DNA of 40,386 nucleotides from NCBI GenBank assembly GCA_021852275.1, contig JAJZNX010000097.1, forward strand, positions 1-40,386. Reading direction: 5' to 3'. Origin of the DNA: Planctomycetota bacterium. Its GTDB lineage: Bacteria > Planctomycetota > Phycisphaerae > WQYP01. Below, piece by piece: positions 723 to 14,848 of the stretch. The notes beneath the pieces are model-generated. The model did no database searches, was not told where the DNA came from, and saw only the letters and a program-made list of their open reading frames with translations. Both the position numbers and the translations under genes were made by a program. Position 1 is the first letter of the stretch. The number at the start of each line of letters is the position of its first letter.

Positions 723-1559
723 CTAGAAATGGATGATCAAAATACACAAAAGATTATAGGTAAAATGCAGTAACATGCCGGGAAGCATAGACCCGGTACG
801 TACACGCAGATATCCCAGAACCAGGCCCAGCAGAAACAGGTAAGGAAACGCCGCCACAGTCAGATGCAAGGTCATGAACAGCAAAGCGCTGACGATAACG
901 GCGTCGCGGGGCGAAAGCGTTGATTGCAATGACGGCAAGATAATTCCACGAAAACCGAGTTCCTCAAAGACGGCCGGTTGAACGCAGTTGGCCAGAATGA
1001 TTGTGGTCCAGCCGAACCCGGCAGCCAGAAAAGGCCTGACCATGTGCAGTTCACGCACTCCTAGAAAGCGATGTTCCAGCGCCAGCATTCCCGAGGCTAT
1101 CAAAAACATGGTCAATGCCGCGCCAATGGCCGCAAAGAACCACGCGATGTTCACCCGCCGGGTCAGGCCAGCCAGCACTGTGCGGTACGTGGCCAGCGCG
1201 AAAAGGGAAATAATAACAGCGTCGGCAATTTCTAACCTGATAATATCGGAGGCTTCGCCAGCCCGGGTTACTCCGATGATCAAGGTAATTCCGCTGGCGG
1301 CCAGCAGCATAAAATAAAGGGCCAAGGCCGTGGTCATGTGCGATCGATCTTGAGCTTTAGATGCCGATGGCGAGGGTGCCGAAACACTCTGGCAAGTCGG
1401 GCAGCAAAGCCAAGATGGCTGCCATGCGGCACCGCATATCGGACAAAACTTTCGGGTTGCCGGGGTATCGCTATCCTCACCGGCCTCGCAGGCAGCAGGC
1501 TCCTGAGCCTCGCTGCCCGGCACTTCCGTATTGCTGCTGGATGATTCGGGTTGATCCAT
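723..1559 (-). CDS. Zinc-ribbon plus CPBP family intramembrane metalloprotease (Abi/CAAX-like)
   Basis: CPICGAAW..CCPTC zinc ribbon, then multiple TM segments with EELGFRG motif and later HLTVAAFPYLFLLGLVLGYLRVRTGSMLPGMLLHFTYN, typical of CPBP proteases. Start placed at internal MDQPESSSS. Confidence 0.85.
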   Translation of the reverse strand: MDQPESSSSNTEVPGSEAQEPAACEAGEDSDTPATRKFCPICGAAWQPSWLCCPTCQSVSAPSPSASKAQDRSHMTTALALYFMLLAASGITLIIGVTRAGEASDIIRLEIADAVIISLFALATYRTVLAGLTRRVNIAWFFAAIGAALTMFLIASGMLALEHRFLGVRELHMVRPFLAAGFGWTTIILANCVQPAVFEELGFRGIILPSLQSTLSPRDAVIVSALLFMTLHLTVAAFPYLFLLGLVLGYLRVRTGSMLPGMLLHFTYNLLCILIIHF

Positions 1560-1614
1560 TCTGCCTCGACAATTTCCGAACGCATTCATTCTATTACGGC
1601 TTTAGCCACCATGA

Positions 1615-2184
1615 TCACGGCTGGCCCTGCCGGCGAATGATCTGCCGGTATTTAACTCCTGCACCCACAGCACGGATCAGCGCTGCAGTTACAATAACCT
1701 TGATGATAATACCGTTGAGCAAACCGTTGGGGTGGGACTGGATATTTTTGAGGGCAACGATCATGTCCAGCATCCATAAGCTGACATAGAGCACCAGGCC
1801 CACGATGGCTGCCGGCAGAGGAGATTTTCGCGACCAGATGAAAAGGCCCCAGAAGATGACGGCGATTCCAAAGATGACCGCCACAGCAGCGTGCATCCGG
1901 GCCACTGGAATTTGACGGTCTTGGGAGAGAATGACATATTCCACAAAGCCAAAGATGGTCTGCACTACCGCTGCCAGCACCAAGGCTCCGGATGCGCGCC
2001 CAAGCTGCTTGCGCAGTTCGTCGGCCTGCAAGGCCACGCCGGCCGAGGTTGTGGCAAAGGCGCTTTCGGCAATCACCCGTGGCCCGCCGGCACCGGCTTG
2101 CGGCAGTGCCTTGCCACAGGATTCACAAAAAGCTCCGCCGACCACGACCGCTGCGCCACAATGAGGACAACTGGTGGAATCCAT
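1615..2184 (-). CDS. Zinc-ribbon membrane protein (about 4 TM), hypothetical
   Basis: MDSTSCPHCGAAVVVGGAFCESCGKALP zinc ribbon followed by several hydrophobic segments. Start chosen at internal Met next to the zinc ribbon. Confidence 0.75.
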   Translation of the reverse strand: MDSTSCPHCGAAVVVGGAFCESCGKALPQAGAGGPRVIAESAFATTSAGVALQADELRKQLGRASGALVLAAVVQTIFGFVEYVILSQDRQIPVARMHAAVAVIFGIAVIFWGLFIWSRKSPLPAAIVGLVLYVSLWMLDMIVALKNIQSHPNGLLNGIIIKVIVTAALIRAVGAGVKYRQIIRRQGQP

Positions 2185-2562
2185 ACACCTTCTCCTTAAA
2201 GTAAACGCCTGCGAATCCACATTTCGCTGTTCACCGACGGAACATCCATTGCATCCAAGCAACCACAAAATTCAGCCGCAGAGATGATGCTCCTGCCGTG
2301 ACGTTACAGCAATTCGGTACCTGTTGGCTGGCCCACTTCACCTGAGAACCGAACCGCAATGATTGTACACTGCACGTCCGAGGGTGCAAGAAAAAAAACC
2401 GGTACCTGGGATTGACGCGTCAAGTTATTGCCGGCTTGAGTACACGCCAGGGCCGCCGACGATGCTGCCTGCTCCACCGTAAGAGGCCGGGCAAAAATGG
2501 CTTTGCACCTTCCGGCGGGTCCTTTTGGCGGCTGGGCAAAACAGAGCAGGTGAACAGGAGGT

Positions 2563-2600
2563 GCGGGCTGGGGTCCGTGAGACGGGAGTTTGACGGTTAA
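2563..2600. repeat. REP-like dispersed repeat copy 2
   Basis: gcgggctggggtccgtgagacgggagtttgacggttaa, nearly identical to 160-197. Confidence 0.8.
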
Positions 2601-2610
2601 ACACGAAGAA

Positions 2611-2712
2611 GTGATCAGCATTCAGTGGTCAGCATTGAGCGGGCGGCGGTCAGCGTTCGGCAGGCAAGATGGCGGCGTTTCCACGACGGGCAGGATGCCC
2701 GCGGTCCCAGGG
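2611..2712. repeat. Short TCAGC-rich repeats followed by a GGCAGGATGCC-type hairpin repeat
   Basis: gtgatcagcattcagtggtcagcattgagc, then caggcaagatggcggcgtttccacgacgggcaggatgcccgcggtcccagg; cgggcaggatgcccg is a perfect 6-bp stem. Similar TCAGC-like words recur around 35079-35115 and 35316-35340. Confidence 0.55.
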
Positions 2713-2801
2713 ATTCCCGCACCGTATTCATATACCCTTTATTTCCTGATGGCCTCTAACTGCAATAACAGTGCTAAGGGCTGCGCCCTGATGGCTGTGA
2801 T

Positions 2802-5800
2802 TTATCGGTAAGCCCGGAGTACCGGAACCTTCAGCCATACAAAGCCGGCGGGGCTGTGGCCGACATTTTGCGTCGGCAGCAGGAGACGGAAGGGTGCCTT
2901 GAAACTGGGGTTGGCGTCGAAAAGCACAGCGTCGTAGATGGTCCGGCCGGGCTGGATTGTCCTGGTATTCCAAAGAAAACCACGCGGCTCGTCGGCCGCC
3001 TGAACAAACCTGACTATCTCAGCATCGCTGCCGCGTTTGCACACTATGGCAATGCCGCGATCCAGCAATCCGAAAGGAGCACCGGGTTGAAACTTCTTAG
3101 GCGTGCCACGCCAGGTTGTGAAGGCAACCGGCCGCTGCGACGTGTTCTTCACCGCCACCACGATAATCATCGCCTGGAGGAAAGAGCGTTGGCCATTGGC
3201 CGTTCTATAGTACGAAGTTACACCCTGGTTGCCCTTTACCCACACCTGGCAGGGTCCGATACGGGTTACCCGTGTTGCGCGGGGCGAGTTCAGGTGGCCC
3301 GGCAGTGCGGGCGGAAGCCGGGGAGATCGATGCCCATAATGGAAGATGTCTACAACATTGCTTGGTTGGCGCAGCCCGTTCTTCTGTTGTACAAATCCTC
3401 CGGCAAAGATCGCCTGGTTGCCTACGGCCGCTGCAGCCGGATTTTCACGTGCCTGCGACAGGTGGCTGACGGACCAATCGCCGGTCCTGGCATTGAAGAT
3501 GTCTACACTGTTGCCGGGGCGGGCGGTACCACCGGCGAACAGGGCGCAGTTGCCCACTGTGGCGGTGGCCGCCAAGTTGAAGGCAGAGTTGCAGCGGGCC
3601 ACGGAAAGCCGCGATACAGACCACGTTCCCGTGCGTGCGTCGAAAATATCGACACGATCTGTGGGAAAGGGACCTTCGCCGCCGGCAAAAAGGGCCTTAT
3701 CGCCCACGCTGGCGGCGATGATATCGTAACGGGCCAGCGACAACCGGGCTGTCGATTGACGTGCGCCGGTTGCATTAAAAATATCCACCATATTGCTTAG
3801 CATGGCGCTTGACCCGCCGGCAAACAGCGCATCATGCCCGGCCGCGGTTGCGGCGCAATTAGTCCGGGGCTGGGCGAGCCTGGCCACGGACCACCGGCCC
3901 GTGGTCGAATTGAAAATATCCACTGCATTGCTGGGCACCATACGCGGGAAACGACCGCCTGGAACCATGTTGGAGCCGCCGGCAAAAAGGACGCAATGCC
4001 CGGCCGTAGTGGTGGCAAAACCGCTTCTGTCTGCGGAGAGTCTGGCCTGCGACCACGTACGCTTCAGGGTATTGAAAATGTGCACCGTTTCTCTTTGTTG
4101 GGGGCCGCTTGCAGCAACAAGCAGCACATCGTGGCCCGCAGCCGCCATGACCGGCACCATATCTGCCGGGGACCTGGTGGCCCACCACCGGCCGGTTCTG
4201 CTGTCAAACAGATACAGAAACCCGCCGGTAAGAAAAACCGCATCACTGCCCACCGAAGCGCCCAACGCGTAGATGCTGACCGTGTAGGGCAGCGGAAGGG
4301 CATTGCTGGACCACCTGCCGGTATGGGCGTTGTAAATATCGACGTGACACGGAGCGTTAAACATGTTGGAGCCGCCGACATAAAATAAAGCATCATGTCC
4401 TGCGGTTACCGCAACCACGTGGTCACACGGCCTCGACAGTCTGGCCGTCGACCAGTAACCGGGCGCAGGCACACGCACAGGCTCCGGAACCACCAGTGCC
4501 GGGACCGGCTGCTGACGTATGTGCCAGGGAGCGGCCGGTGGTGTTACAGGTGGAAACGCAAGCGGCCTGGTGGGTGAAGCTCCGGGGGCAATACTGTGCC
4601 AGACCGTAGGGGTAACGGAAGATGAACTGCTTCCCTTCGATTGCGCGCTTTTACTGTGGGAGAATGCACTTGCGATGAGCGCCAGTGGAAGTCCCAGCAC
4701 GAGAACCAATATAAAGCTCCCCACCACTTCCAGCAGCAAGGCCAGAAAGGTTGTCAGGAAGCCGGCACCAAAGAGCTTCCTGACCAGCCAAAAATAAATA
4801 AGCGGCGGTGCAACCACCATCAACAGCAGGAGGATCACGCCCAAAACCCCATGCGACACCAGCGATCCGCTGCGCCCGTTGATAAAAACCACACCACCGA
4901 CGAGTACAGCCGCAACAATGACCAGAATAATGATGGCCACGTCCATGGCAATGGTGAGTACTGTCGCCTTGATCACCATGGTCTTGAAATCCCCATAATC
5001 GGCGTTGGGAGAAAGCGGCCTGAGCAGAACCAGACAGGCGATCAGCAGAAGTTCCCCGGCATACTGGCCGACGCTCAGGACACCCACGTACCCGCCGACC
5101 GCGTCCGGATGCGCCCAGATGTGGAGTTTCGGATTAAAAGCTGAGGTGAGGCCCAACACGATAAGCTGCAAAACCGCCAGAGCTACCAGGCATCCCAGCA
5201 TGGTGAGTATTGTGGCTAACCAATCTGGAGCAGTGGCGCGATCCTCGGGCCGGGAGGTTCGGCTGAACCCTGCGGGGTTTTGCCGGCGCGCACGTTCCGC
5301 CTGCCGGGCCTGCGCTGCCGCCTGCCGCTGTTCCCCACGGAATAAAAAACTTTCACACTCAGCGCAAATGTATTTTCCATCCCGGAACACCAACGGTGCA
5401 GTGGTATCCGACTGGCCGCAACGGCTGCAAAATTGTTCTTCAGATCTGGCGGCCGGCGGAGGAACTCCAGGAGCCACGGCCATCACGCCAGCATCGGCGA
5501 GTGAACCGGCCTCGATGGGGGCCAGCGGCTGCAAATCCGTCGGCAGCAAATCGACGAGTTGTGACAACTCGCCCTGCGGTGCCAGCGGCGACGTTTCCAG
5601 CGCTGCTGTCGGACTGGCCAGAGAACCACCGGTACCGTGCAAGTTTTTCCCTGTGATACGTGCGGCGTAGCACGATTCGCAATAATAGCGGCCTTGCGGA
5701 TCCTTGATGCGTTTTTGGCCGCGCAAATCTTTGCGGCAGACGATGCAGACCTTGGCTCCGGCTGCGGCCGCACCGTCATACGTATTCGTCGCTGCCCCGA

Positions 5801-5918
5801 CAGCAGGCACCTGCACCGGCTGCCGGCAGCGCGGGCAGCGTCCCCACGATCCCCGCGCCGATTCGGGCACCAGTGTTCTGGCACCACAACCCGGGCACGT
5901 TACCTCAAGGGCCATCAT
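2802..5918 (-). CDS. Triple zinc-ribbon, multi-TM, kelch-repeat protein with C-terminal DUF4352-like beta domain
   Basis: MALEVTCPGCG..CPRC; CIVCRKDLRGQKRIKDPQGRYYCESC; CSRCGQSD..CAEC; several TM segments; repeated kelch-type units (ALFAGGS..VDIFNA.TGRWS..RLS.AR); C-terminal VVAVKNTSQRPVAFTTWR..IQPGRTIYDAVLFDA..LLLP. Start at MMALEVTC overlaps the stop of the upstream gene. Confidence 0.85.
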   Translation of the reverse strand: MMALEVTCPGCGARTLVPESARGSWGRCPRCRQPVQVPAVGAATNTYDGAAAAGAKVCIVCRKDLRGQKRIKDPQGRYYCESCYAARITGKNLHGTGGSLASPTAALETSPLAPQGELSQLVDLLPTDLQPLAPIEAGSLADAGVMAVAPGVPPPAARSEEQFCSRCGQSDTTAPLVFRDGKYICAECESFLFRGEQRQAAAQARQAERARRQNPAGFSRTSRPEDRATAPDWLATILTMLGCLVALAVLQLIVLGLTSAFNPKLHIWAHPDAVGGYVGVLSVGQYAGELLLIACLVLLRPLSPNADYGDFKTMVIKATVLTIAMDVAIIILVIVAAVLVGGVVFINGRSGSLVSHGVLGVILLLLMVVAPPLIYFWLVRKLFGAGFLTTFLALLLEVVGSFILVLVLGLPLALIASAFSHSKSAQSKGSSSSSVTPTVWHSIAPGASPTRPLAFPPVTPPAAPWHIRQQPVPALVVPEPVRVPAPGYWSTARLSRPCDHVVAVTAGHDALFYVGGSNMFNAPCHVDIYNAHTGRWSSNALPLPYTVSIYALGASVGSDAVFLTGGFLYLFDSRTGRWWATRSPADMVPVMAAAGHDVLLVAASGPQQRETVHIFNTLKRTWSQARLSADRSGFATTTAGHCVLFAGGSNMVPGGRFPRMVPSNAVDIFNSTTGRWSVARLAQPRTNCAATAAGHDALFAGGSSAMLSNMVDIFNATGARQSTARLSLARYDIIAASVGDKALFAGGEGPFPTDRVDIFDARTGTWSVSRLSVARCNSAFNLAATATVGNCALFAGGTARPGNSVDIFNARTGDWSVSHLSQARENPAAAAVGNQAIFAGGFVQQKNGLRQPSNVVDIFHYGHRSPRLPPALPGHLNSPRATRVTRIGPCQVWVKGNQGVTSYYRTANGQRSFLQAMIIVVAVKNTSQRPVAFTTWRGTPKKFQPGAPFGLLDRGIAIVCKRGSDAEIVRFVQAADEPRGFLWNTRTIQPGRTIYDAVLFDANPSFKAPFRLLLPTQNVGHSPAGFVWLKVPVLRAYR

Positions 5919-7803
5919 GCACGCTCTCTTTTTTTGTCGAAGCGTTGGCCCGAGCGAAGTACCGCTGCGGCCAGGCAGAGTAATCAACAGTCGGTATGGG
6001 CAGTTGCACACGGGCTGTTCCCTGAACGCCCAGATTGGCCAGAGGCAGCGCAAGTTGCAACGGGGGGCGTGCGGCGTCGAAAAAGAGCGGATCGTAGATT
6101 GTCTGACCCGGGGCGATCACCTTCGCGCTCCAGACAAAGCCCCGCGGTTCTTCGCCAAAGCGCTTGAATCCCACCGCGGGAATAGCTTTACCCGCCGCGT
6201 ACAGCGTGGCAATACCGAACGCAGCAACGTTAAAAGTAACCCCAGGGCGCTTCAGCGCCGTGGTGATGAGTTGAATCCTGGCCGGCGTGGTCCGCCAAGT
6301 TTGAAACACAATCGGCCATCTCGACGTGTTCTTCACCGCCACCACCACAATCAGTCGCGCCGCAAGCGCACGTGGTCCGGCAACCGTCCGATAGGGGGCA
6401 ATACTCGCCTTGTTGTTGACGATCCAGACCAGCCGGCCGTTGAACAAACCATACGGCCCAGCCGGGTTTGCGACGGTATAATTTGCCGGTCGCGGCCAGA
6501 CGGGTGCTGGCTGGGGATCCGTGAAAGTACTGGTCGACGAGATCACCTGCTGAAATCTGGCCGGCGAAAGCCAAAACACTACGCCATCAGCAAAGGCAAC
6601 GTTGCCTCCATTCCCGTGATTGATGCCGGCACGCTCATAGGCGAGTACTTGGTTTTGATTATCAGCGTCGTACTGGTTGGCAGCGGCAAGTATGTAGTCG
6701 CAGTGGCCCTCAAGCCGCCGGGCCACCAGGGAAACGTCGGTCCGCTGTCCCGGTGTTAAGCCGGACAAGTCTGCGGCCTGGCGGCCGGAGTTGGGGTCAA
6801 TCAAATCCCGGGCCTTGAGCGTGCCCTCGGCCACAAGGACGGCAAAATTTGGCGGAAAGCGATTTTGATGGCCATGGGCATAGGCGGTGCAAGCCTGGCA
6901 AATGTTATGCAGGTGCAGCGAAGATTCGGCCCGACCGGCGAGAATGTGAGCCTGGGCGAAAGCTGGCAGCAATATCGCCACCAGCAGCAGCGGCAGCAGC
7001 AACGTGAAAAATCCACCGATGATCACGCCGGCAATGGCCAACCCGCGTGGAGCTTTGCGCAGACCGATGATGCTGAGGATTAAGCCCACCGGCGCGAGCA
7101 AAAACATCGTCAGCACTGAAACCAGTGAAATGATAAATCCAGCCAATCCGAAACCGTTGGTGCCGCTGCCGGCGGATTGGCGGTATTGCTGGTCGCGCAA
7201 GTCTGGGGGGGCTATGGCCCTATGATCCACCGGCACTACGCGGGAACGGCGGGAGCTACTGGCCACGGACTGGCGATGCAGACATTCCAGGCAAACCAAT
7301 TGACCATCACGTGAAAGCAGAGGTATGGCGGCGTTGCTTTGGCCACAAACGCTGCACGTCTGCGGGTCGGCGGCAGACGCAGAGGCTGTTTCACCAGCCT
7401 GTGGAACGGCTTGGGATTGTCTTTGAGGCTTCTGCGTGCCTGCCGCGGCCACTGCTCCGGGAGCCTGATCGCCAGAGGGTGCATCCATCGGCAACAGGCC
7501 GCCGGCAAACACATCCTGCCGAACCTGGGGAGAGCCGCCTGAAGTGCCCTGGGTTGCCGCATAGGGGTTTTGTCGCGCGGCGTAGCACGATTCGCAGTAA
7601 TAGAGGCCTTGCGGATCCTTGACGCGTTTTTGGCCGCGCAAATCCTTGCGGCAAGCAGTGCAAATTTTAGGAGTTGGGGCTGTGGCGGAAAAGGGGCCGG
7701 GAACCTCCAGCGGCTTATGACACCGCGGGCAGGCAATAGGCCTTCCTGCCGCCGCCTCTGGCAGCGAGACCTTGGTTCCACAACCCGGACAAGTTATGTC
7801 CAC
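5905..7803 (-). CDS. Triple zinc-ribbon, TM (DUF4190-like), H-X9-DG pseudopilin-like protein with C-terminal DUF4352-like beta domain
   Basis: CPGCG..CPRCHKPLEVPG; CTACRKDLRGQKRVKDPQGLYYCESC; CSVCGQSN..CLEC; hydrophobic region; NHGNGGNVAFADGVVFWLSP (H-X9-DG signature); C-terminal VVAVKNTSRWPIVFQTWR..IAPGQTIYDPLFFDA..LALPLANLG. Confidence 0.85.
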   Translation of the reverse strand: MDITCPGCGTKVSLPEAAAGRPIACPRCHKPLEVPGPFSATAPTPKICTACRKDLRGQKRVKDPQGLYYCESCYAARQNPYAATQGTSGGSPQVRQDVFAGGLLPMDAPSGDQAPGAVAAAGTQKPQRQSQAVPQAGETASASAADPQTCSVCGQSNAAIPLLSRDGQLVCLECLHRQSVASSSRRSRVVPVDHRAIAPPDLRDQQYRQSAGSGTNGFGLAGFIISLVSVLTMFLLAPVGLILSIIGLRKAPRGLAIAGVIIGGFFTLLLPLLLVAILLPAFAQAHILAGRAESSLHLHNICQACTAYAHGHQNRFPPNFAVLVAEGTLKARDLIDPNSGRQAADLSGLTPGQRTDVSLVARRLEGHCDYILAAANQYDADNQNQVLAYERAGINHGNGGNVAFADGVVFWLSPARFQQVISSTSTFTDPQPAPVWPRPANYTVANPAGPYGLFNGRLVWIVNNKASIAPYRTVAGPRALAARLIVVVAVKNTSRWPIVFQTWRTTPARIQLITTALKRPGVTFNVAAFGIATLYAAGKAIPAVGFKRFGEEPRGFVWSAKVIAPGQTIYDPLFFDAARPPLQLALPLANLGVQGTARVQLPIPTVDYSAWPQRYFARANASTKKESVHDGP

Positions 7804-8090: not shown

Positions 8091-9527
8091 GTGACTGCTA
8101 AACTCTGCCAACTTTGCTTATGGCCGTTGCGGCCCAGCCGTTGGAGTATTTTGTCTGGCCTGGCGGTCGGGTTGCTTTTGCTATCCGGATGCCAAAGCCG
8201 GTTACCGCTTAAACCCGCCGGGCCTGATACCGCCTTCAATATGCGTTACCAGTTCGGCACGCCCTTGAGCGGTCCCCAGGCAATGCACCGTAAACTCGCC
8301 GCGGCACCAGATTTAATGGTGCACGTGCAATTTATTAAACTAAATCAGTGGCCGAAGGTGCATTTATCATCCCTGGCCAGCCAAAGCACAATTACCATTA
8401 ACAACGCGGCCAGCCGGCCGACGATGGCTTTTCCGGCCTTGAGCATCGGGGCGCAGTTTGCCAATGTCAACAGCGTTGCCACCTGGGCGGCGCTTTTGCA
8501 TTCCGCCGGAGTAACGGCGACCCCATGCGGCCAAGGTTCCGCCGCCCTATGGCCGGGCGTAGCGGTAGCCATGCGTTTAACCGATGCGCACGGACTGAAG
8601 GTGCATGGTAAAAATATGCACCAACTGCTGGCTTTGTGGGTATGGCAGCCGCTGGCCGCAAAGGCAATGGCACCTGTGATGGCAGGGCTGGCTTTTGAGA
8701 TCAAGCGTTTCCAGAATTTAAGTACGCATCCTGTAGTTTCCGGCCAGATGCAGGTGGTGCCGGAAAGACTATTCACCGCTACAACTACGTACGCAGCCAT
8801 TTTGCCTTTTCATTTTCTTTCCGGCAAGAGCCGCGTGCTGGCTATTCTGATCACCATCCGTCCATGGACTCATTCGCTGCAAAACCTGGCCATCGCCAGG
8901 CAAAGCCGCCGGGGTATCGCGGCAGCGCAACATGTGCATCCTGCGGTGCAACTGTTGAATCGGCCGGATTTGATGGTGGCACTTGGCCACCTGGGCAAGC
9001 CGGGAGTAACCCGTGCATCTCTGGTGTATCTGGCCGGGCAAACGAGGGCCAGGTTGACACAGGATGTAGCCGTGGCAGCGCAGTCGCCGGTGCTGCAGGC
9101 GCTGGCCAAAGCCGTTACCGCCAATACTGTTCATGCGCAATTCATGACGGTGGCGCAGTTGGGATGGGCCTTGGACAAAACCACCTACCTGTTACTGTAT
9201 CAGATGCAAAAAACAAAACCACTGGGACTGCGGCTTAGCGTTGCTCTGGGATTGCATCTTGGGGAGGCAGCCTGGCACGTTTCTTCACTGGATGAAATTG
9301 CCCGTAATCTGGAGTCGCGTCGGGCTTACCGCCTGCGCATTATCAAGGAAAATTTGATGTATCTGGAAGATTCCTCGCCCGGGGCCCGTTTAACCGCGTT
9401 CAACTGGCTCAACCGGCGGCATCTGGCACCGGCTGGTTATAACCCGCTGGCCGGCAATCGGGCACGTAATTCAGCCTTGAATAAGGCGGAAAACAATGCC
9501 GCTTATCTGCGGAGGTTACAACAATGA
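8091..9527 (+). CDS. Hypothetical lipoprotein
   Basis: GTG start; signal with lipobox LLLLSGC; stop overlaps the ATG of the downstream AsmA-like gene (ATGA). Confidence 0.75.
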   Translation: MTAKLCQLCLWPLRPSRWSILSGLAVGLLLLSGCQSRLPLKPAGPDTAFNMRYQFGTPLSGPQAMHRKLAAAPDLMVHVQFIKLNQWPKVHLSSLASQSTITINNAASRPTMAFPALSIGAQFANVNSVATWAALLHSAGVTATPCGQGSAALWPGVAVAMRLTDAHGLKVHGKNMHQLLALWVWQPLAAKAMAPVMAGLAFEIKRFQNLSTHPVVSGQMQVVPERLFTATTTYAAILPFHFLSGKSRVLAILITIRPWTHSLQNLAIARQSRRGIAAAQHVHPAVQLLNRPDLMVALGHLGKPGVTRASLVYLAGQTRARLTQDVAVAAQSPVLQALAKAVTANTVHAQFMTVAQLGWALDKTTYLLLYQMQKTKPLGLRLSVALGLHLGEAAWHVSSLDEIARNLESRRAYRLRIIKENLMYLEDSSPGARLTAFNWLNRRHLAPAGYNPLAGNRARNSALNKAENNAAYLRRLQQ

Positions 9528-12500
9528 CCGAGGTACCCGTACCGGCCAATCCATCGCCGAGAGTTCCAGCCAGCGGTCCGCGGCCCAACCGCTGGGCGGT
9601 TATACGCCGCCGCGCCGTGTGGACCATTTTCAGCATGGCTGGAATTTTGCTGGTGCTGCGCATCGCCCTGATTTTTATCTTTCCAGCGGTGCTGGAACAT
9701 GTGCTGGGTTATTACCATCTCACCGCGGGTTATCAGGAAATAAAACTCGATGTACTGGGGGGTGATGCGGAAATATGGGGCCTTACCATACGTCCGATAC
9801 AGGGCGGAGCGAAGGTTATGCATATTGAGTATTGCCACGGCAATATCTCCATTGTTAATTTGTTTCGCGGCCGGCTGTATATCCGCCGGGCTGTAGCCGA
9901 TGGTGCAGACCTGTTTGTGCGCCGCCAGGCCGATGGAAATTGTCCCCTGCTAAATGCCCTTCTTTCCTCCGCCCGGCAGCAGGCCAAAGCACCGGCGGTA
10001 CACCCCCCCACTGCTACTTCCATCAGTCTGGCGGCACCCTTGCACATGGAGGCGTTTCGCCTGGAACATCTGCGGGTGCATCTGATAGATCACAGCGTTA
10101 CGCCGGTGGTGCGCCTGGCCATTACCATGAACGTGCGCGTTTCGCATCTGGGACAGCGGCACGGGGCCACGCAGTTTCGACTGGATCTCTGGTCGGCGGC
10201 GGTGGTGGATGTGCTGCACATGAGTGGAACACTGACCACCCATGCCAACAGCTTGCTGGCGCAATGCCATATTCTTATGCGCGGATTACATCTGCAGCCT
10301 ACCAGCGGCTATCTGGCGGCCTTGAATTTCCGGCCCGGCAAGGCCGGCCTATCTTTGCGTGGCCAGAGCACCCTGGCGTTACGAGTCATCCCCTCTAAAA
10401 CCTCCGCACAAGCCCTTGCGGCCGTGTTTACTCTGCGACAGGTGCAACTCAATTCTGGTGGACGGCCGGCATTAGGCCTGGACAATCTGGTAGCCCGGGG
10501 ACAACTGGCCCAACATCTGGCGGATATCCGCGACCTGACCATTTCCGGCTTAACGATTCATGCCGGTCGTGGCCAAAATGGCCTGTTCCACTTTGCCGGG
10601 CTGGAAGTGCTGCGGCGTATCGCCACGGCCGGAGGCACGCTGGTAAACCCCGCCAAACCACGCGTGGCAAGCCGTCAGGCTGGCAAGTCCAAGCTCCGGC
10701 AGATTCCGCATGCAATGCCGGAGACTGCCAGCCACCCTTATCAATATGCGATTGACCGGCTCAATATACATGGTTTCAAGGTGGTTTTTGATGATCAGGG
10801 CATAACACCCAACACTCATCTAAAACTTAACCTCAACACCCTTGAGGCCGTGAGCACCGGCGGCCTTCCCGGCACCGCTGGCGAAACCTTGATGATTTCC
10901 GGCTCCGGGGCTTTGCCGGGCATTGCCGCAGCCGTCAACATTTCCGGCGATATGAAGCCGTTTGCCCGCACGCGAACCCTTAAGCTGCACCTGGCGGCCA
11001 CCGCGATCACCGCCGGTGCCCTGGCTCCTTACCTGTCTGCGGCAGGGCTTAAGAGCGAACTTAAATCCGCCAGTTTCAACGCCGATTTTTCGGCCACGGC
11101 CACCACCGCCCCGGACGGCACCACGGCTGCTTCTTTTCATCTGGATCATTTGACGTATCGGGATGGTACTAACACGCTATGCGATTTTAAGCGCATTGAT
11201 ATTGACCGGGCACGCATTAATGCCGCCACGGGCAGATGGGAAATTGGTTCCTGCACGATCATCGGTCCGGCCTTTGATTTTTCCCGGACGCCCTCCGGGG
11301 TGTACACGGTGCTGGGAATGCAGATTCTCGGTTCTGGCACCCGGCAGCCGGCGCTGCCGCCAGCGGTGAAAGCCCCAACGCCACCACATGGAGGCGGGAC
11401 CATGAATCCGCCGCCACGCCTGCAGATCAACCATTTCCAGTGGTCTGGAATACGTATAGGGTTTGATGACCACCACGCCCGGCCCGCCACCCGCATCGGC
11501 ATCAGCCACGCCGGCCTGATGCTCCATAACTTCATGCTGGACCTGGCCGCCGGAAGCCCTGCCCGCCACCCCGGCCTGTTCAAAGCCTGGCTGGATGCAC
11601 CCGGGCTGATCCATCTGAACGCCGCGGGCAGCATTGGCCCCGGCAAAAACAGCCTGATCACGTCCATGCAGGTGCATGGTACGAATATCAACCTGCGTCC
11701 CTTAACGCCGTATCTCAAGGGGCTGGGAATTCTGCCGCAATTAACGCAAGGCACGCTGGCCGGCTCACTGGGGGCGAAAGTGGCATTGCACGGCGGCCGA
11801 CTGACTGGATCCGTGCAGGTGTCTGATCTGGCGCTGCGCCAAGCCGGGCAGGAATTGGCGGCGGTGCAGAAGTTTCAGGTATCCAACATTGCTGCTGCAC
11901 GGCATGATCTGACCATCCAGCGGGTGCGAATTGTCAAGCCGTTTTTACAGGTTACCCGCCTGACCACTGGCAATTTAAGCTTGTGTGGCATCAATTTGTT
12001 GCCCGTACCTGCCACCGCCCCGGCTGTGGCCATAGCCAATGCCCCTGTTGCCCCCCCGCCCACAACGCCGTTACGTGCAGCCATTGGCGATATATTACTC
12101 TCTGATGCCATCGTGCGGTGGATCGATCTAAAACCCGCCCAACCGGTGAATGTACGACTCCATATCGCGGCGGTGGTTACCAATGCCATACTGGGGCATC
12201 GCCACCCCGCCATGGGCACTGTGCAGGCGACACTTTCGGCCAAGGGTGTGGCCGGGGCCATGAACCTGGGAGGAACATTTGCCGTGCCGGTAAGCGGGCT
12301 AAGCGCCCATCTGCATCTGCTGGCCACCCGCCTGCAGGCCCAGGTCATAAATACGTATCTGCCGTCCGGTATCACCTTTGCCCCCAAAGACCAGAGCATT
12401 GCCGCGTTACTTCATATCCATCTGCAGCGAAGCCAGGACGGTTCTATCCGGGGCCAGGCCGGTATCAGCAATCTTCAGGTTAGGGCCGCTCCAGGTACTG

Positions 12501-14848
12501 CAGCGGCGCAAACACTGCTGTTTGCACCAGACCTGATGGTCAATTTCACACGTATTAATCCGGCTCGTCACCGCCTGGCTGTCAATGCGCTTCAGGCCCA
12601 TATCCAAACCATTTACCTGGCCCGCCGTGGACATTTCTGGTCCGTGTGCGGTTTGCATATCGGAGGGAAAGTCCGCACCAGGCCGCTTGCCCATGTAGCG
12701 GCCACAACCCCACATGTATTTTCCATTCTTCCTGCACAATTGCCGCTGATAACGTTGCAGCACCTGCAATGGCGTATGGATCATGTGGTGGTGGCGGGGT
12801 TGCTGCCGCACCGGCAAGCCTTGCAGATCAGCAACCTGAAGCTGCACAATACCGCGCCCGTGCTCTGTCTGGGCGAAGCACCCGCCCGCCAGCCGGCAGT
12901 GGCCCTGCAACTCACCGGCACACTCGACGGAATTGCCCGGCACGTAGCATTGGCTTTTCGCCTCAAGCCCTTTGCCAACCATCCTCGCGCGGCGGTGAAC
13001 ATGGCCATCACAGGTCTGCGCGGCCCGGGTTTGGCAGAAGCGGTGCCGGCCCTGCCGCGGTACTTTGCAGTAAAGGCCTTAAGAACAGGAACCTTGACGG
13101 CCAGTGCGTCCATATCGCTGCGGCTGGATCGGCGATCGCCGTTGGATTTTAATCTGGCGCAGCCATTTTCAGCCTCGGCAATAATCTCCGGAATTGCATT
13201 TCGCGACACCCCGCATGGGCCGGTGATGGCGGGCATTGAGAACATCAGCGCCGATAAAATAACCGTTGACCCGGCGCATTTTTCCATAGCCGTACCCATG
13301 CTGAATATACGTAAGCTGACCTTGCGCATCACGCATGATGCCACCGGTTTGGGCGTGGCCGGGCTGCCGCTCAATATGCAAAAGACACCGCCCCTGGTGG
13401 CAAACCATGTGCTGGCTCCGCGTGTGCATCCAGCATTACAGCCGGCCGGCACGCGCCCGTGGCAGCTTCTGATTCAACGAACGGTCATCAGCGGGATAGA
13501 TGCCCGATATATTGACCAGACCTGCACACCGCCAGTTGAAATTCCGCTGAATGGCCTGGAAGCCCAGATTTTTAACCTGGGGACAACTCCGCTGACTGCG
13601 CATATTCCCCTGCGATATAATCTCATCGCTTATGCCGGCGCAGTTGGCAATCCGACCATGGGCGTAAAAGTTCCGTCGACGACAACAAAACCGGTGGCCG
13701 GGAAAAGTATCGGGAAAATCACCCCGCCGCCACATGTGGCAAAAGCCAAGCCACTTTTTGCCCAGTTTTCATCCAATGGGCAAGTGTATCTGTATCCGCA
13801 TCTGCAGGGCTGGGCCAGAGCGGCGCTCAACGGAATGTCCCTGGCGGAGCTTGCGCCGCTGGCAAAAAAATATGGCGTTACCCTTGGCGGGGGCACACTG
13901 GACAATTCCAGCGACATCCGGTTCCATGCCGATCATCGCATGAATTTGCATACCAAGCTGGTGTTTTCCAACCTGAACCTCTCGGAACCGCCGCACGGCG
14001 CTTTGGCCAGGCTGCTGCATCTTCCAACGCCGGTGAATGTCGCTATTGCCGCTATTGAAGCACCGGATGGCTCGATTACCCTGCCACTTTCCGTGCCGAT
14101 CAGCGCCGGCCATATTTCGCAATCCGCCATTACCGGCCAGCTCATCGGCGATCTGGTCCAGGTGGTGGCAGTAGGCATTGCCAGTTCACCGCTTAAAGTT
14201 GCAGGAGGTCTGGCGTCACTGTTTGCCTCCGGTAAGCTGCAGGCCGTCAAAAAGCCTCCGATAGTATTACACTTCGCACCCGGATCCCCCACCATCACCA
14301 GCCGGGATTGGCTGGCAATAGGAGCGTTGGCCAGACAGTTGCGGCATCACAGCTCGTTACAGGTGGTGGTGCGGCAGCAAATATCTACTGCGGACATTGC
14401 GGTGGCGGCGAGCCGTGCCAATCCTACCAAACGGCAGTGCCTTGAGCTTATCGCCGCGTTGGAGGCGCAAGCCAATCGCCTGATGAGCCAGCGCCGGCAG
14501 CAACTGGGCCAATTGCGCGGGGAACTGGCTATTCGTCTTTCCGACAGTGCGATTCATCAGGGCACCGGCCGGCTTGCCCGGCTGGATACCCGGCTGGCCC
14601 ATGCCCGGATGGCTATCAACTACCTGGCGGATATGCTTGCGCCGGGAGCCGGCCGCGAGGCCTCCCGCCGCACGCGGGGCATGATGATCACCATCGCCCG
14701 CCGCCGACTCTTTGAAATCAAGGCGGCCTTGCTGGCTGCGGGCTTCGCCCATCCAAACCGCCGCGTGCATATCGTGTTCCCCCAATACCTGCCCGCCAAA
14801 TCAGACCGTGGCGGGCCCGCTACCATCGCCCTGGTGCGCACCCGATAG
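9524..14848 (+). CDS. Very large AsmA/DUF748-family envelope protein
   Basis: 1774 aa; single N-terminal TM; repetitive beta-rich architecture; C-terminal LPTPVNVAIAAIEAPDGSITLPLSVPI and an OmpA-like stretch FAPGSPTITSRDWLAIGALARQL, resembling DUF748 proteins. Confidence 0.8.
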   Translation: MTEVPVPANPSPRVPASGPRPNRWAVIRRRAVWTIFSMAGILLVLRIALIFIFPAVLEHVLGYYHLTAGYQEIKLDVLGGDAEIWGLTIRPIQGGAKVMHIEYCHGNISIVNLFRGRLYIRRAVADGADLFVRRQADGNCPLLNALLSSARQQAKAPAVHPPTATSISLAAPLHMEAFRLEHLRVHLIDHSVTPVVRLAITMNVRVSHLGQRHGATQFRLDLWSAAVVDVLHMSGTLTTHANSLLAQCHILMRGLHLQPTSGYLAALNFRPGKAGLSLRGQSTLALRVIPSKTSAQALAAVFTLRQVQLNSGGRPALGLDNLVARGQLAQHLADIRDLTISGLTIHAGRGQNGLFHFAGLEVLRRIATAGGTLVNPAKPRVASRQAGKSKLRQIPHAMPETASHPYQYAIDRLNIHGFKVVFDDQGITPNTHLKLNLNTLEAVSTGGLPGTAGETLMISGSGALPGIAAAVNISGDMKPFARTRTLKLHLAATAITAGALAPYLSAAGLKSELKSASFNADFSATATTAPDGTTAASFHLDHLTYRDGTNTLCDFKRIDIDRARINAATGRWEIGSCTIIGPAFDFSRTPSGVYTVLGMQILGSGTRQPALPPAVKAPTPPHGGGTMNPPPRLQINHFQWSGIRIGFDDHHARPATRIGISHAGLMLHNFMLDLAAGSPARHPGLFKAWLDAPGLIHLNAAGSIGPGKNSLITSMQVHGTNINLRPLTPYLKGLGILPQLTQGTLAGSLGAKVALHGGRLTGSVQVSDLALRQAGQELAAVQKFQVSNIAAARHDLTIQRVRIVKPFLQVTRLTTGNLSLCGINLLPVPATAPAVAIANAPVAPPPTTPLRAAIGDILLSDAIVRWIDLKPAQPVNVRLHIAAVVTNAILGHRHPAMGTVQATLSAKGVAGAMNLGGTFAVPVSGLSAHLHLLATRLQAQVINTYLPSGITFAPKDQSIAALLHIHLQRSQDGSIRGQAGISNLQVRAAPGTAAAQTLLFAPDLMVNFTRINPARHRLAVNALQAHIQTIYLARRGHFWSVCGLHIGGKVRTRPLAHVAATTPHVFSILPAQLPLITLQHLQWRMDHVVVAGLLPHRQALQISNLKLHNTAPVLCLGEAPARQPAVALQLTGTLDGIARHVALAFRLKPFANHPRAAVNMAITGLRGPGLAEAVPALPRYFAVKALRTGTLTASASISLRLDRRSPLDFNLAQPFSASAIISGIAFRDTPHGPVMAGIENISADKITVDPAHFSIAVPMLNIRKLTLRITHDATGLGVAGLPLNMQKTPPLVANHVLAPRVHPALQPAGTRPWQLLIQRTVISGIDARYIDQTCTPPVEIPLNGLEAQIFNLGTTPLTAHIPLRYNLIAYAGAVGNPTMGVKVPSTTTKPVAGKSIGKITPPPHVAKAKPLFAQFSSNGQVYLYPHLQGWARAALNGMSLAELAPLAKKYGVTLGGGTLDNSSDIRFHADHRMNLHTKLVFSNLNLSEPPHGALARLLHLPTPVNVAIAAIEAPDGSITLPLSVPISAGHISQSAITGQLIGDLVQVVAVGIASSPLKVAGGLASLFASGKLQAVKKPPIVLHFAPGSPTITSRDWLAIGALARQLRHHSSLQVVVRQQISTADIAVAASRANPTKRQCLELIAALEAQANRLMSQRRQQLGQLRGELAIRLSDSAIHQGTGRLARLDTRLAHARMAINYLADMLAPGAGREASRRTRGMMITIARRRLFEIKAALLAAGFAHPNRRVHIVFPQYLPAKSDRGGPATIALVRTR

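Follow-up and report, generated by a model that had tools for sequence, protein, structure and literature searches.

Adjacent zinc-ribbon membrane paralogues with homologous ends and unlike middles in a Planctomycetota genome

Contig JAJZNX010000097.1 of the Planctomycetota bacterium assembly GCA_021852275.1 was analysed over positions 1 to 40,386, and this whole stretch is called the window below. It contains, head to tail on the minus strand, the genes of two zinc-ribbon membrane proteins, paralogue A (P0001) and paralogue B (P0002), the start of A overlapping the stop of B by 14 nt. A preliminary description of this DNA had proposed two adjacent paralogues with identical ends and exchanged middles. 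The arrangement holds, as both open reading frames are present and a BLASTP comparison of the two products aligns the ends alone: 195 columns at the N-terminus (42% identity, E 1e-34) and 151 columns at the C-terminus (39%, E 4e-28), with no significant alignment of the middles between them. "Identical", however, was too strong a word for ends that are homologous with 48.8% (N-terminal) and 42.6% (C-terminal) identity per aligned residue, near-identity being limited to a 90-nt tract over the second of the three CxxC...CxxC ribbons found at each N-terminus. Trees calculated separately for each end group A with B (support 94/92 for the N-terminus and 96/99 for the C-terminus). This suggests that at either end the nearest relative of each protein is the other; support is moderate, given the short rows in the N-terminal alignment and some long branches.

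The middle of paralogue A contains the kelch run recognized in the preliminary description. Eight kelch-type repeats are present, and the protein scores above the cutoffs of Kelch_1 (PF01344; 39.0 vs 20.1 bits, Pfam E 5.6e-10), Kelch_4 (PF13418; 30.7 vs 21.6 bits) and Kelch_6 (PF13964; 29.7 vs 25.3 bits). Kelch relatives from the same taxonomic family are secreted proteins, lipoproteins or of a PEP-CTERM-like type, which fits a location of the kelch part outside the cytoplasm. Among these secreted relatives, L053 and L056 carry a PEP-CTERM-like tail (VPEPATLGLLLLGGLALLRNRRR). A large protein encoded elsewhere in the same genome (L088, contig C96, 1712-5848, minus strand) combines an N-terminal LEPR-type motif and kelch repeats with an apparent peptidase domain, and L067 in genome G011 is similar. 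For paralogue B, the predicted H-X9-DG motif of a pseudopilin-like domain was confirmed at residues 396-407 of 632. It is thus internal, whereas TIGR04294 (H-X9-DG-CTERM) expects a C-terminal motif, and this profile scored 15.4 bits against a cutoff of 19. The class III signal peptide motif G[FMYWL][TS][LIV][IVL]E was not found anywhere in paralogue B. Domains of the same H-X9-DG type form the C-terminus of large secreted proteins (L018, L020, L021, L022, L024, L032, L036, L040 and L087, the last with an additional weak DUF3352 match), and the domain is a mobile module of its own.

Between the ribbons and these modules, hydropathy analysis places five transmembrane (TM) segments in paralogue A and a hairpin followed by one TM segment in paralogue B. 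Because both proteins would cross the membrane an odd number of times and their K/R-rich loops lie toward the N-terminal side, both are predicted to have the N-terminus inside and the C-terminus outside. No homology was detectable between the membrane segments of A and B. The "common membrane/adaptor scaffold" of the preliminary description is therefore wrong as stated, since these segments belong to the exchanged middle. What the two proteins share would instead be their zinc-ribbon end in the cytoplasm and their C-terminal domain outside it. The membrane part of B resembles DUF4190 (PF13828), with a score of 19 bits that stays below the cutoff of 35, and the 5-TM part of A had no convincing match in the genomes searched beyond the species analysed here and its sister species (genomes G000 and G004, respectively).

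The C-terminal domain has relatives well beyond this locus. With a stepwise widened profile it was detected at E <= 1e-4 in 19 of 397 genomes of the class and in 13 of 294 genomes of a phylum sample, both counts being lower bounds as the best candidates per genome alone were scored. An hhalign comparison of the local group with nine distant members, a group built without the window proteins, gave 97.9% probability and E 3.4e-13. In most distant members a zinc ribbon, a GYF_2 module or no recognised module at all is followed by TM segments, a linker and the C-terminal domain; both window paralogues belong to this zinc ribbon - TM - C-terminal domain group (profile A5), having the homologous domain, three ribbons and TM segments. 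Of the proteins inspected, only A, B and the orthologue of B in G004 carry a large module that separates the membrane part from the domain. The preliminary description had expected homologues with alternative middles, and these are indeed common among homologues of either end. In L093 of genome G020 the same ribbons at the N-terminus are followed by a single TM segment and the C-terminal domain, and in other proteins the N-terminal ribbons are attached to RDD, rhomboid, GTPase-like or other multi-TM parts. Fragments of about 50 residues of the C-terminal domain lie in otherwise unmatched frames in genomes G011 and G018 (L083 5628-6593, minus strand; L084 6076-6657, plus strand) and are possibly decayed or frameshifted copies. 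The likeness to DUF4352 (PF11611) that had been suggested for the domain is weak: 4 of 15 relatives gave sub-threshold matches (best E 0.0004), and neither window protein matched. NCBIfam yielded unrelated sub-threshold matches alone, and a PDB sequence search with the domain profiles gave no match up to E 1 and chance matches alone up to E 5. In an AlphaFold model of very low confidence the domain consists mostly of strands (mean predicted local distance difference test score, pLDDT, 38.8). Taken together, it is probably an unnamed, beta-rich and weakly DUF4352-like module of Planctomycetota, and the kelch and pseudopilin-like inserts are the unusual part of the layout.

A trace of the history of the pair comes from the sister species, whose contig JAJYDW010000032.1 (genome G004, a Planctomycetota metagenome-assembled genome) has the same gene order as the window. 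The orthologue of paralogue B is full length there and 81% identical. The orthologue of A matches residues 2-472 with 83% identity and stops there, lacking both the kelch repeats and the C-terminal domain. In place of a 2,131-bp block in the window, G004 has 113 bp (L073 8830-8942) that are unrelated to the block and contain no recognisable remnant of it, and the flanks are colinear on both sides with 87-88% identity. The kelch and C-terminal modules were thus gained or lost as one block since the split of the two species. In composition the kelch block is not foreign, its GC content and codon usage matching the neighbourhood. Direct repeats were considered as its vehicle and rejected, as Tandem Repeats Finder (TRF) detected no array there; such repeats as were found were kelch blades and paralogue pairs.

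A different process seems to have acted on the second zinc ribbon. The 90-nt tract at 5659-5748 in A and 7573-7662 in B, encoding RKDLRGQKR(V/I)KDPQG.YYCESCYAAR, is 88.9% identical in DNA between the paralogues, and 86.7-87.8% identical between the orthologues of the two species. The remaining N-terminal region reaches 44-55% DNA identity between paralogues, compared with about 90% between orthologues. Where A and B have the same residue, the codons are also identical in 22 of 26 cases inside the tract versus 52 of 117 elsewhere for the window pair (Fisher 1.8e-4), and in 19 of 27 versus 20 of 60 cases for the pair in G004. As the tract had been chosen from the data, a permutation scan was run, in which the best run of 26 was reached by 128 of 20,000 shuffles in the window and by 251 of 20,000 in G004; these tests are not independent, because the two species share history. 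At the DNA level no other strong copy of the tract was found in either genome. A wider mobile DNA module was rejected for this reason, strong matches being confined to the two paralogues of each species, and gene conversion offers the simplest reading. The ribbon resembles half of a LIM domain (PF00412), with scores of 16.5 and 11.8 bits, below the cutoff of 22.9, that involve the second half of that domain alone.

Coordinates of the features discussed are compiled in Table 1.

Table 1. Features of the paralogue pair and its neighbours (window positions; residues refer to the protein concerned)
Feature	Position	Strand	Remarks
Paralogue B (P0002)	5905..7803	-	632 aa, GTG start; 3 zinc ribbons, DUF4190-like hairpin + TM, pseudopilin-like H-X9-DG domain, C-terminal domain
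B, zinc ribbon 1	7720..7791	-	C5, C8, C25, C28; sequence and alignment
B, zinc ribbon 2	7573..7662	-	CxxC-x18-CxxC, LIM-half-like; partner of high-identity tract
B, zinc ribbon 3	7282..7356	-	sequence and alignment
B, membrane part	6964..7158	-	hairpin (about residues 216-248) and TM (256-280); DUF4190-like, below cutoff
B, pseudopilin-like domain	6565..6987	-	residues 273-413; H-X9-DG at 6583-6618; no class III signal peptide
B, C-terminal domain	5980..6438	-	residues ~456-608
Paralogue A (P0001)	2802..5918	-	1038 aa; 3 zinc ribbons, 5 TM, proline-rich linker, 8 kelch repeats, C-terminal domain
A, zinc ribbon 1	5826..5897	-	sequence and alignment
A, zinc ribbon 2	5659..5748	-	88.9% DNA identity to 7573-7662
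A, zinc ribbon 3	5355..5429	-	sequence and alignment
A, 5-TM region	4671..5210	-	residues 237-416; convincing match in sister genome G004 alone (85%)
A, kelch repeats (8)	3339..4466	-	residues ~485-860
A, C-terminal domain	2811..3266	-	residues ~885-1036
Replaced block	2397..4527		2,131 bp (kelch, C-terminal domain, part of intergenic stretch) vs 113 bp in G004
Zinc ribbon + TM protein	1615..2184	-	neighbour; 189 aa from ATG
Zinc ribbon + CPBP (Rce1-like) intramembrane protease	723..1589	-	neighbour; profile matches

The pair is part of a run of four consecutive genes (723-7803, minus strand), the other two encoding the 189-aa protein and the CPBP protease, and each product starts with zinc ribbons followed by membrane segments. 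Among 28 genomes of the family, the 189-aa neighbour is present in G000 and G004 alone, and the run of zinc-ribbon membrane genes around the pair was seen in these two species alone. On the plus strand (8091-14848), a gene for a lipoprotein-like product of 478 aa, which matches neither Pfam nor NCBIfam, stands beside a 1774-aa gene of the DUF748/AsmA type, a pair that is kept in several genera of the family. At this lipoprotein/DUF748 locus five genomes of other genera are without the whole cassette, and the contig of G003, from the same genus, ends too soon there.

The explanation that we favour, with slightly better than even confidence in it as a whole, is that A and B arose by tandem duplication and share a modular layout of Planctomycetota that would connect zinc ribbons in the cytoplasm, across the inner membrane, with a beta-rich C-terminal domain outside. 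After the duplication, the modules between the ends would have been exchanged, giving B its DUF4190-like part and pseudopilin-like domain and A its 5-TM part and kelch propeller. The kelch and C-terminal block of A would then have been gained or lost as a unit once the two species had separated, and short-tract gene conversion may have kept ribbon 2 alike between the copies. At the envelope, the kelch or pseudopilin-like module together with the C-terminal domain might bind a ligand or partner, a contact that the zinc ribbons could relay or anchor inside the cell. The sister relation of both ends in the trees favours tandem duplication with later exchange of the middles. The modular domain replacement envisaged in the preliminary description is supported in part, by the sister relation, by relatives with many different middles and by the sister species without the kelch and C-terminal block. 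Several observations weigh against this explanation. The C-terminal domain evolves faster than the N-terminus between orthologues (70% vs 86% identity), and yet the paralogues are nearly equal at the two ends (43% and 49%), which hints at a later sharing of the domain. AlphaFold confidence is very low (pLDDT 38.8 for the C-terminal domain, 35.2 for residues 204-632 of paralogue B), and the assembly of the window genome is 82% complete. Moreover, neither the 5-TM region nor the lipoprotein/DUF748 locus tells gain of the block from its loss, the 5-TM gene being matched in no genome searched other than those of the two species. Duplication with exchange of the middles is nevertheless put somewhat ahead of a later sharing of the C-terminal domain.

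A distinctly less probable history is one of separate fusions, in which zinc-ribbon membrane genes lying side by side each acquired the C-terminal domain, A recently and as a kelch and domain block, with the likeness of their N-termini kept up in part by gene conversion. The G004 version of A without kelch repeats and C-terminal domain would be expected under such a history, which could also draw on two proteins of the family: L090, with zinc ribbon, DUF4190 and the same pseudopilin-like domain, lacks the C-terminal domain, and L082, with zinc ribbon and a multi-TM part not detectably matching that of A, lacks both kelch repeats and C-terminal domain. The conversion of ribbon 2 and the lower ratio of paralogue to orthologue divergence at the C-terminal end than at the N-terminal end point the same way. 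However, the C-terminal domains of A and B are the closest known relatives of each other, as would not be expected from two independent donors, the kelch block is not compositionally foreign, and no donor with kelch repeats and C-terminal domain was found. That the ancestor had a full-length A and G004 lost the kelch and C-terminal part has a nearly even chance of being correct. Such a deletion is compatible with the duplication and exchange favoured above, concerning its direction alone. It agrees with the sister relation of both ends, which an old duplication predicts, and with the in-frame 1038-aa protein without stops; the G004 junction, on the other hand, is not clean, given its unrelated filler. 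A chimeric metagenome contig as the source of the block in the window, or of the short form in G004, has to be considered because both genomes are metagenome-assembled or incomplete and the coverage of the G004 contig is 3.9, but clean reading frames in both, colinear flanks on either side and the fitting GC content and codon usage make an artefact very unlikely. Least credible of all is that the middle of the short protein functions as a type IV pseudopilin, being processed and then assembled into a pilus or into a machine like that of type II secretion. Although its H-X9-DG motif and a helix of the type AILLPAFAQA... recall planctomycete pseudopilins, a pilus role is improbable since the prepilin signal is missing; in addition, three ribbons and a membrane hairpin precede this helix, TIGR04294 scores under its cutoff, and the same domain stands at the C-terminal end of large DUF3352-like proteins.

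As for function, the reading that we tentatively favour, with somewhat less than even confidence, is an envelope-spanning binding or sensing protein whose inserted module would set what is bound. A bolder and unlikely reading would make the locus a cassette of envelope receptors under active diversification, whose neighbouring paralogues have their cytoplasmic and C-terminal interaction ends in common, swap extracytoplasmic binding modules as blocks between close species and remain compatible inside the cell through conversion of one ribbon. The finding alone opens no new mechanism. It does tie an unannotated Planctomycetota domain to a recognisable layout of zinc ribbon inside, membrane and domain outside, and it provides a clear example, seen in two species, of how an entire extracytoplasmic block can come or go within one reading frame. 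A family model of the C-terminal domain would annotate uncharacterised membrane proteins of Planctomycetota.

A literature search for this combination of modules returned nothing relevant. Comparison is with systems that share parts of it. Layouts of zinc ribbon, TM segments and extracellular ligand-DUF have been described, with DUF4352 in comparable contexts (PMC3924330). The window proteins would likewise join an intracellular zinc ribbon to an extracellular domain, but this domain gives no match to DUF4352, and three ribbons and large inserted modules are present here. Modular type IV pilins such as PilB of Streptococcus sanguinis (PMC8179133) differ in that the window pair lacks a class III signal peptide and has a multi-pass anchor and N-terminal zinc ribbons. 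L085 and L086 (1306-1308 aa, from the same family) also combine the C-terminal domain with a beta-propeller in one membrane-anchored protein, but in the order zinc ribbon, TM, domain, propeller, so that the propeller follows the domain, and it is WD40-like, not kelch. Close counterparts are also the Planctomycetota proteins that consist of zinc ribbon or GYF_2, TM segments, linker and domain (for example L101, L103, L106, L109 and L117). They share the N.S...Y..W ... PG..i.D.l.F ... L.LP..N.G domain, a cytoplasmic-type N-terminal module and a membrane part, and differ by a bare linker before the domain where the window pair has a kelch run or a pseudopilin-like insert. What is unusual about the pair is the insertion of modules, the block specific to one species, the conversion of a ribbon and the surrounding run of genes for zinc-ribbon membrane proteins; as a whole it is a modest variation, specific to this lineage, on a modular layout common in the phylum, and no new kind of system.

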